Assembly: GCF_000008545.1 (NCBI RefSeq)
Contig: NC_000853.1
Location: 62,001-126,000, forward strand
DNA length: 64,000 nt
Direction: 5' to 3'
DNA from: Thermotoga maritima MSB8
GTDB taxonomy: Bacteria > Thermotogota > Thermotogae > Thermotogales > Thermotogaceae
The notes under the pieces were generated by a model, which saw only the letters and a program-made list of their open reading frames with translations, was not told where the DNA came from and ran no database searches. A program made the translations under genes and the position numbers. Shown here in pieces: positions 1 through 1,965 of this stretch. Each line of letters starts with the position of its first letter. The first letter of the stretch is position 1.

Positions 1-1323
1 AACTACCCAGAGGCACCGAGGACGGCACTCATCGAACAGGCTCACAAAATGATGCAGCTCTTTGAGATTTTCAAGAAGTACAGCAACGTGATCACGAACG
101 TCACATTCTGGGGTCTCAAGGACGATTACTCCTGGAGAGCAACAAGAAGAAACGACTGGCCGCTCATCTTCGACAAAGATCACCAGGCGAAACTCGCTTA
201 CTGGGCGATAGTGGCACCTGAGGTCCTTCCACCACTTCCAAAAGAAAGCAGGATCTCCGAAGGCGAGGCTGTGGTAGTGGGGATGATGGATGACTCGTAC
301 CTGATGTCGAAGCCGATAGAGATCCTTGACGAAGAAGGGAACGTGAAGGCAACGATCAGGGCGGTGTGGAAAGACAGCACGATCTACATCTACGGAGAGG
401 TACAGGACAAGACGAAAAAACCAGCAGAAGACGGAGTGGCCATATTCATCAACCCGAACAACGAAAGAACACCCTATCTGCAGCCTGATGACACCTACGC
501 TGTGCTGTGGACAAACTGGAAGACGGAGGTCAACAGAGAAGACGTACAGGTGAAGAAATTCGTTGGGCCTGGCTTTAGAAGATACAGCTTCGAGATGTCG
601 ATCACGATACCGGGTGTGGAGTTCAAGAAAGACAGCTACATAGGATTCGACGCTGCGGTGATAGACGACGGGAAGTGGTACAGCTGGAGCGACACGACGA
701 ACAGCCAGAAGACGAACACGATGAACTACGGAACGCTGAAACTCGAAGGAATAATGGTAGCGACAGCAAAATACGGAACACCGGTCATCGATGGAGAGAT
801 AGACGAGATCTGGAACACGACAGAGGAGATAGAGACGAAAGCGGTGGCCATGGGATCGCTTGACAAGAACGCGACAGCGAAAGTGAGGGTGCTGTGGGAC
901 GAGAACTACCTGTACGTACTTGCAATCGTGAAAGACCCCGTTCTGAACAAAGACAACAGCAACCCGTGGGAACAGGATTCCGTGGAGATCTTCATCGACG
1001 AGAACAACCACAAGACAGGATACTACGAAGACGACGACGCACAGTTCAGGGTGAACTACATGAACGAGCAGACGTTTGGAACGGGAGGAAGTCCAGCGAG
1101 GTTCAAGACAGCGGTGAAACTGATCGAAGGAGGATACATAGTTGAGGCAGCGATCAAGTGGAAGACGATCAAACCCACACCGAACACGGTGATAGGATTC
1201 AACATCCAGGTGAACGATGCGAACGAGAAAGGGCAGAGGGTCGGTATCATCTCCTGGAGCGATCCCACAAACAACAGCTGGAGAGATCCTTCAAAGTTCG
1301 GTAACCTCAGGCTCATCAAGTGA
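1..1323 (+). CDS. xynA: Xylanase A, C-terminal part (end of GH10 domain plus two CBM9 modules), 5' truncated by window
   Basis: The reading frame is already open at base 1, so this is the last 440 residues of a larger protein. The first ~75 residues are the end of a GH10 xylanase barrel (VTFWGLKDDYSWR, then a DKDHQAKLAYWAI segment typical of the GH10 C-terminus). Two CBM9-type beta-sandwiches follow: C1 at about residues 95-255 and C2 from about 256 to the end. C2 keeps the two tryptophans (NPWEQD and SWSDPTNNSW) that in the studied Thermotoga module clamp the reducing end of cellulose or xylan. C1 is more divergent. The enzyme cuts xylan outside the cell, and its products feed the importer at 10-15 kb. 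A GC-rich hairpin follows the stop. The N-terminal CBM22 modules and catalytic glutamates lie upstream of the window. Confidence 0.97.
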   Translation, partial: NYPEAPRTALIEQAHKMMQLFEIFKKYSNVITNVTFWGLKDDYSWRATRRNDWPLIFDKDHQAKLAYWAIVAPEVLPPLPKESRISEGEAVVVGMMDDSYLMSKPIEILDEEGNVKATIRAVWKDSTIYIYGEVQDKTKKPAEDGVAIFINPNNERTPYLQPDDTYAVLWTNWKTEVNREDVQVKKFVGPGFRRYSFEMSITIPGVEFKKDSYIGFDAAVIDDGKWYSWSDTTNSQKTNTMNYGTLKLEGIMVATAKYGTPVIDGEIDEIWNTTEEIETKAVAMGSLDKNATAKVRVLWDENYLYVLAIVKDPVLNKDNSNPWEQDSVEIFIDENNHKTGYYEDDDAQFRVNYMNEQTFGTGGSPARFKTAVKLIEGGYIVEAAIKWKTIKPTPNTVIGFNIQVNDANEKGQRVGIISWSDPTNNSWRDPSKFGNLRLIK

Positions 1324-1350
1324 GGGGGGAGATTTCCCCCTCCTTATTTG
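1322..1350 (+). terminator. Terminator after xynA
   Basis: GAGGGGG (1322-1328) pairs with CCCCCTC (1336-1342) around a short AT-rich loop and is followed by CTTATTTG. The T tract is imperfect, so some read-through into the next gene is possible. Confidence 0.6.
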
Positions 1351-1378: not shown

Positions 1379-1918
1379 ATGAAGAAATGGTTTTTGATGA
1401 GCGTGCTGGGAGTTTTCGCTTTTCTGATCATCCTTTCAGGATGTGTCTCTGCACCTGGTACGGGAGGAGCATTGAACAAGGTTCTAAAGGTAGAAACGGG
1501 TGATCAAGGCTGGAAAACGGCATGGTTCTATGGTATTGGGAACTACATCAACGCAGATGCAACCTACACCTACAGCGTCAGAATCTACCACGAAGAAGCC
1601 ACATCTGTGAAGTTCAACCTCACGTTGAAGACAACAACAAATCAGTACAAATCCATATTCTGGGGAAGAGAAGTGCTACCCGCAACATGGGTGACGATCG
1701 AGGCAACCTACACGTTGAACTCCTCTGATGGAAATCCCTCGGACATCTACATCGAACCTCAGACCCCCGGTATCACCTTCTACCTCGACGACTTCGTGAT
1801 CAAAGATGAGAGTGGCAAAGTTGTTTTGAAAACTGATTTCGAAGACGGTACAGAACAGGGCTGGTCAGGTAACAACGCCACTGTTTCGGTTGTGTACGAT
1901 CCTGCTCAATCTCAATGA
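1379..1918 (+). CDS. Lipoprotein with a CBM22-like module in rotated order
   Basis: A 179-residue lipoprotein. Its signal peptide has the lipobox LSGC (Cys about residue 22), so it should be anchored in an envelope membrane. A GGGGGTAG ribosome site lies just upstream. The body resembles the CBM22 modules found at the N-terminus of Thermotoga xylanase A: QGWKTAW, a central TWVTIEATYTL strand and the FYLDDFVI closing strand. The sequence starts in the middle of such a module, and after the closing strand it adds TDFEDGTEQGW, which is normally the first strand of the next module. The protein therefore equals one module's worth of sequence cut out of a tandem array. No catalytic domain is present. 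It may bind xylan at the cell surface, or it may be a decaying remnant of a longer xylanase. Function is inferred only. Confidence 0.75.
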   Translation: MKKWFLMSVLGVFAFLIILSGCVSAPGTGGALNKVLKVETGDQGWKTAWFYGIGNYINADATYTYSVRIYHEEATSVKFNLTLKTTTNQYKSIFWGREVLPATWVTIEATYTLNSSDGNPSDIYIEPQTPGITFYLDDFVIKDESGKVVLKTDFEDGTEQGWSGNNATVSVVYDPAQSQ

Positions 1919-1936: not shown

Positions 1937-1965
1937 AACCCCCGCTCGTGCGGGGGGTTATTCTT
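1937..1965. terminator. Bidirectional terminator between convergent genes
   Basis: CCCCCGC (1939-1945) and GCGGGGG (1950-1956) form a strong stem with a 4-base loop, flanked by AAAAAACAA on the left and TTATTCTT on the right. It can therefore stop transcription from both sides. Confidence 0.8.

Follow-up and report, generated by a model that had tools for sequence, protein, structure and literature searches.

Is the small gene behind xynA in Thermotoga maritima MSB8 a working carbohydrate-binding module with its strands in an unusual order, or the debris of a longer gene? The gene (positions 1379-1918, + strand) lies in the window, by which we mean the whole 64,000-nucleotide stretch analyzed here (positions 62001-126000 of a single-contig genome of 1,860,725 bases). 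An earlier note had read its product as one CBM22 module's worth of sequence in permuted order, fused to a lipoprotein signal. The sequence comparisons reported below confirm a real, conserved natural circular permutant, in which one complete CBM_4_9/CBM22-type module is carried by a 179-amino-acid lipoprotein. The fuller explanation that we favor, and consider probable, is that of a lipid-anchored, single complete permuted CBM22-type module which arose through permutation by duplication, is closed in cis, and serves at the cell surface as a binder of xylan or xylo-oligosaccharides. Permutation by duplication is already known, as are the module family and the lipoprotein form; here they are combined in a permuted CBM22-type variant.

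Gene context and lipoprotein signal

The open reading frame starts with ATG, and all of its parts read on the + strand. In translation, residues 1 to 21 (1379..1441) form a signal peptide followed by the lipobox L-S-G-C22, and both hallmarks of a bacterial lipoprotein, the signal peptide and the lipobox cysteine, can therefore be read straight from the sequence. The same signal type, in which [LI]-x-[GA]-C closes a hydrophobic stretch, is common to three Thermotoga orthologues and to a relative from another genus of the same family (genome G010, described below). Cys22, the expected lipid anchor, opens a spacer (residues 22 to 33; 1442..1477), and model confidence is low around it (pLDDT below 50 at residues 18-24 and 26-29). 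The module body follows (residues 34 to 143; 1478..1807), running from the third strand to the closing strand FYLDDFVI. A three-residue link, E-S-G (residues 144 to 146; 1808..1816), joins the old C-terminus to the old N-terminus in our alignments. The tail (residues 147 to 177; 1817..1909), with the sequence KVVLKTDFEDGTEQGW..ATVSVV, comprises the first two module strands, now C-terminal, an assignment that draws on the rotation scan, the predicted strands, and the selection analysis below. The final two residues and the stop codon (1910..1918) complete the gene by translation and alignment.

Upstream, the 3' part of xynA (1..1323, + strand; the GH10 end and the region beyond it, with the full gene in locus L028) is separated from the lipoprotein gene by a 55-base gap. 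Downstream, a small convergent gene (1965-2426) and then a uronate isomerase gene lie on the opposite strand. The names of these neighbors are those that we take from the known gene order. A hairpin scan of the sequence placed a putative terminator-like hairpin in the interval between xynA and the lipoprotein gene (1322..1342, + strand), and as a result the second gene may be transcribed at a lower level. In genomes G005 and G006 this interval hairpin has another sequence that, by eye, is still able to pair. A second terminator-like hairpin lies 3' of the lipoprotein gene (1939..1956, + strand, reported on both strands).

Sequence evidence for a permuted module

Residues 34 to 142 correspond to a module from its third strand to its end, and residues 147 to 173 to its first two strands. 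The ordinary N-to-C strand order is absent, with the first two strands sitting at the C-terminus, and we therefore class the protein as a permuted CBM22-type variant and not as an ordinary member. In terms of the ordinary module, the break falls in the loop that leads from strand 2 to strand 3, so that no strand is missing. In native order, Pfam CBM_4_9 matches residues 33-128 over profile positions 36-132 with 47 bits (cut-off, 25.9), and the body without its tail scores 39.5 bits. When the tail is put first, profile positions 2-132 are covered at 47.7 bits; the gain from rotation in Pfam is one of coverage, with the total score up just 0.7 bit. The three orthologues score 42.6 to 47.2 bits with the same family. 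NCBIfam matches (GTA spike fibre, 21 bits versus a cut-off of 36) fall below cut-off.

A local profile of eight native-order modules, against which rotations were scanned in steps of 4, separates the two orders more widely. Native and rotated scores were 99.8 and 121.7 bits for this protein, 103.9 and 128.4 for its G005 orthologue, 102.8 and 123.7 for that of G006, and 85.8 and 106.6 for that of G004, a gain of 21 to 25 bits in the four proteins. In each of them the optimum lay no more than 4 residues from the tail start, and the rotated match ran as one stretch over profile positions 1-146, with all module strands present. This rise in profile score in all four proteins bears out the earlier claim that a lipoprotein signal carries the sequence of one module in permuted order. 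None of 300 shuffled tails per protein matched the rotated score. With both G010 modules removed from the profile, the gain was 9 to 13 bits and the score was reached by 0, 0, 1, and 0 of 300 shuffles, respectively. Judged by these scores, the tail's likeness to the opening strands exceeds chance; a chance likeness was ruled out by the tail shuffles. Seven residues are invariant across the eight native modules (F7, G10, L36, W45, Y63, W104, and D137), and all seven are retained in the four permuted proteins, two of them (F154 and G157) within the tail.

Against solved chains, a rotated profile showed no gain over the native-order profile (25.9 versus 26.8 bits for 4xuo and 31.7 versus 35.2 bits for 4xup). 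The 4xup entry is itself a tandem pair, and a body-then-head order, with the first two strands as head, thus fits it too.

Predicted structure and solved relatives

AlphaFold2 monomer models were built from a five-row alignment and gave the full protein a mean pLDDT of 79.7 and a pTM of 0.74 (the five models span 79.7 to 61.0). Strands are predicted in the tail at residues 148-152, 162-165, and 167-173, with pLDDT values of 96, 74, 88, and 79 for successive ten-residue blocks across 141-179. A disordered C-terminal strand had been named earlier as the outcome that would count against a functional permutant; the model instead predicts strands in the tail. Most likely the C-terminal strands would return to the body of their own chain, in cis, and complete one beta-sandwich. 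When modeled alone, the tail-less body is likewise predicted to fold (mean pLDDT, 88.2; pTM, 0.80), and the model therefore gives no proof of a need for the tail. Without the tail the first strand is predicted to be shorter (residues 36-39 versus 34-40), which is a weak hint at a role for it.

Eight solved CBM22 entries align with the model body (Z, 10.5 to 12.4; 110 to 114 residues; from model residue 31/32 to 144-148), and the jelly-roll beta-sandwich fold is thereby found over the body residues of the predicted model. Alignment of these modules to the body only is what one would expect of a sequential aligner unable to handle a rotated head. The CBM22 of Paenibacillus barcinonensis Xyn10C (4xuo/4xup) and that of Clostridium thermocellum (1dyo) align with the model body at Z 11.0 to 11.8, and an alignment of the rotated sequence with 4xuo runs from end to end (query 2-141 on 11-154; E, 0.0028). 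Those modules have the ordinary strand order and sit within xylanases, whereas the module described here is a free lipoprotein.

The top structural match to the full model is 4mgq ("PbXyn10C CBM APO"; Foldseek E, 4.1e-7), which aligns at Z 14.9 over 146 residues with a high rmsd of 3.7, from model residue 22 to 177, tail included, on chain residues 136..294. It is not among the best 50 structural matches of the body alone (the last at Z 9.1), and it was not listed in any sequence search of solved chains. A match to the tail-bearing model, together with its absence from the listed body-alone matches, hints at the same strand order; 4mgq may share the permutation, and we treat it as a lead only. 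The hits in a library of viral protein structures were numerous but weak and involved long proteins. We took the unrelated proteins in the structure match lists to be common beta-sandwich matches.

The tail could also complete the fold in trans, with two lipoproteins swapping their first-two-strand segments in a strand-swapped dimer, a solution that we regard as unlikely. Two points would suit a dimer: the closing strand and the tail are separated by a short link of about five residues, and the available part of PMC2259423 gives the repeat-derived Pot II inhibitors as a case of swapping. The tail is fairly confident in the monomer model, but this hardly counts against a dimer because monomers alone were modeled.

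Selection on the tail

Between the four permuted proteins (six pairs), dN was 0.058 to 0.244 in the tail (residues 147-177) and 0.058 to 0.323 in the body; the tail value was above that of the body in two pairs, equal to it in one, and below it in three. Tail dS was 0.42 for the closest pair; the other five either gave 2.8 or could not be computed, and most pairs are close to saturation. For these six non-independent pairs, Fisher tests with counts rounded gave p values from 0.003 to 1.6e-9. Positions invariant among the four proteins make up 20/31 of the tail (16/27 when its last four are left out) and 58/110 of the body, compared with 4/21 of the signal (Met1 is missing from three rows) and 3/12 of the spacer. 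None of the four tails contains a stop or a frameshift. By these comparisons the tail is under purifying selection and is conserved about as strictly as the body.

These values bear on a further alternative, in which the tail is an evolutionary remnant: the trimmed module body would be viable by itself, and what trails behind it would be strands 1 and 2 of a second module that has been lost. The high-confidence prediction for the body alone would agree with this, as would the absence of the gene from its slot in genomes G001 and G002 and the failure to find it in G003, from which it follows that pressure on the gene is not strong everywhere. A dangling remnant is nevertheless quite unlikely given a tail with dN similar to that of the body, near-saturated dS in most pairs, many more invariant positions than the signal, predicted strands, and an intact frame in every copy. 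The notion of a degraded copy or recombination scar, raised when the locus was first described, likewise gives way to an architecture kept by four species and to purifying selection on the tail.

Distribution among genomes

A protein search matched 10 of 61 genomes at an E value of 0.001, and an alignment search of the phylum matched 14 of 103 genomes at 1e-6. The full-length permuted protein occurs in four genomes of one genus: G000, G005 (90%), G006 (80-81%), and G004 (57-59%). The permuted form is thus present in four of the seven Thermotoga genomes searched. The gene was not found in the remaining three of these seven genomes and is therefore dispensable.

In G001 and G002, xynA is followed by the small convergent gene after gaps of merely 35 and 52 bases, with the lipoprotein gene missing from the slot, and a protein search of these two genomes matched XynA alone. 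We infer that this absence reflects loss and not gain elsewhere. In G003, the lipoprotein was not found by protein or alignment searches, and CBM_4_9 matches fall in frames of 658 and 198 amino acids, none of them XynA-sized. The contig of G004 ends about 160 bases upstream of its lipoprotein gene, leaving xynA out of view.

An unpermuted counterpart in the same slot belongs to G010 (L012:778-1860). It encodes a 360-amino-acid lipoprotein in which a (PEPQ)n linker connects two complete modules, both with the ordinary strand order. Among the remaining nine of the 14 matching genomes, the matches lie inside open frames of 682 to 1079 amino acids, and those read (L015, L047, and the start of the G002 frame) are all XynA-type. 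Outside the phylum we found two related loci; each encodes a XynA-type xylanase whose tandem modules keep the ordinary order. Viral contigs yielded 63 candidate stretches, none confirmed, and a plasmid search by protein gave no match; 64 plasmid records carry GH10 relatives.

Several smaller features of these loci can be added. A hairpin resembling the downstream terminator-like one remains in G001 and G002 (L033 and L034; by eye) despite the missing gene. The last xynA codons of G001 differ from those of the window at several sites, including two residues. In G002 a 424-amino-acid frame between xynA and the transporter genes (L034 8148-9422) is TnpB-type-like by eye. In G004 (L031) the small convergent gene has no homologue beside the lipoprotein gene, which directly adjoins the uronate isomerase gene. 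A search of seven genomes for homologues of that small gene, run without a positive control, came back empty.

Origin of the permutation

The G010 lipoprotein shares with the Thermotoga protein the slot after xynA, the lipoprotein signal, and the module family, and differs from it in its two complete ordinary-order modules and their linker. The permuted body is identical to its second module at 67 of 113 positions, to its first at 44 of 106, and to the two CBM22 modules of XynA at 24-27 of 108, and in a tree of bodies the four permuted proteins fall next to G010 module 2 (support 88/94). The tail matches each of the two G010 heads at 19 of 32 positions, favoring neither module, and the XynA heads at 7/31 and 8/29; the tail tree is weak. 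Since body and tail are both nearer to the G010 lipoprotein than to XynA, an older tandem lipoprotein gene, and not xynA, is the likely source of these sequences. An origin from the XynA modules is largely ruled out by the identities and the body tree, barring later divergence that wiped out the signal.

A recombination scar from the CBM22 repeats of the neighboring xylanase gene is accordingly very improbable: the lipoprotein gene does adjoin xynA, the bearer of two tandem CBM22 modules, but its identities are lower to XynA in body and tail alike, and its body groups with G010 module 2. The tandem-array origin proposed in the earlier note therefore holds insofar as a two-module lipoprotein occupies the syntenic slot in G010, and fails where it named a longer xylanase gene next to xynA. 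Its companion idea, that relatives might carry an intact longer gene here, applies to G010 in another genus; no intact longer gene of the tandem type was found among the seven Thermotoga genomes searched.

Permutation by duplication is a known process, as set out in the available part of PMC3320104, and the tandem-duplicated relative that it leads one to expect at the orthologous place is present in G010. The G010 tandem lipoprotein and the affinity of the permuted body to its second module fit this process. The ancestor would have been a lipoprotein with tandem modules like that of G010; strands 1 and 2 would have been lost from the module copy beside the signal peptide, and in the next copy these two strands would have been kept and ended by a stop. 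On the simplest path, a stop in a head-body-head-body array would delete the last body and leave a spare head behind the module, and the first head would then be lost, a loss tolerated because the spare head can replace it; each of the two steps could be harmless. If the body is module 2 and a head follows it, an ancestor with a third or duplicated module would presumably be needed. We infer this order of genetic steps, including the intermediate between the tandem relative and the permuted end. No one-end-truncated intermediate was seen among the 14 matching genomes of the 103 in the phylum.

In 2010 Montanier reportedly described a natural circular permutation linking two carbohydrate-binding module families, CBM36 and CBM60. 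The permutation is natural there too, in families other than CBM22. Permuted domains are also tied to repeated or tandem arrangements in saposins and swaposins and in the Pot II inhibitors, according to the available parts of PMC3320104 and PMC2259423, although these have unrelated folds and are eukaryotic. At the xynA locus, one slot holds the permuted form in four species, the unpermuted tandem form in one other genus, and no gene in two genomes. With these three states in the same slot, small and likely heat-stable proteins could be used to test the duplication model of circular permutation. The origin of a rotated protein is legible here from genomes, through an unrotated two-module version in a relative's same place.

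Function and ligand

In T. maritima, two clusters are induced most strongly on xylose versus ribose, about 10- to 20-fold, and "xynA-cenC<>xtpFGKLE-aguE" is among them; it belongs to the XylR regulon, and candidate KdgR sites lie at xynA/xtp (PMC3750489, in the part available). Gene order and name suggest that cenC is the lipoprotein gene; TM0062 has 0 occurrences in the text of that article. The open-licence literature yielded no paper on TM0062 with Thermotoga, and, for CBM22 and permutation, no permuted CBM22 by title and start of abstract. The part of PMC7848910 available to us contains nothing on strand order.

CBM22 modules of other enzymes bind xylan, as stated in the available part of PMC8280721. 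In the C. thermocellum module, the residues that align with Y90 and E126 of the lipoprotein are Tyr103 and Glu138 (counted by hand), and W45 is the likely equivalent of Trp53 (from the range offset in the structural alignment); Y90, E126, and W45 do not vary among the four proteins. Aligned with Tyr134, the lipoprotein has D122. We take Tyr103, Glu138, and W53, with R25 and Y134, to be the xylan-contact residues of the C. thermocellum CBM22. The ligand-contact arginine of the head region (R25) presumably has no counterpart in the lipoprotein. Most likely the protein is a xylan-induced, lipid-anchored binder that would hold xylan or xylo-oligosaccharides at the surface, beside XynA and an oligosaccharide transporter, the ligand and the surface role being suggested by these residues and neighbors. 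This offers a testable function for a probably xylose-induced lipoprotein adjoining a known xylanase.

It is doubtful that the permutation is adaptive and not merely tolerated. Were it so, moving the anchor from the module N-terminus to the strand 2/3 loop would present the ligand cleft otherwise, with the membrane tether exiting another part of the sandwich, and a natural CBM22-type permutant would have been kept across the genus with its tandem form readable in the same slot of a relative. In either case, the protein is a natural example of where CBM22-type modules can be opened. The same genome encodes a second small lipoprotein near 51.3 kb, outside the window (L006, ~1020-1782), which matches CBM_4_9 weakly (at 16.6 bits, under the cut-off) and has an apparently ordinary strand order by eye, and a similar weak match occurs in G003 (L055).
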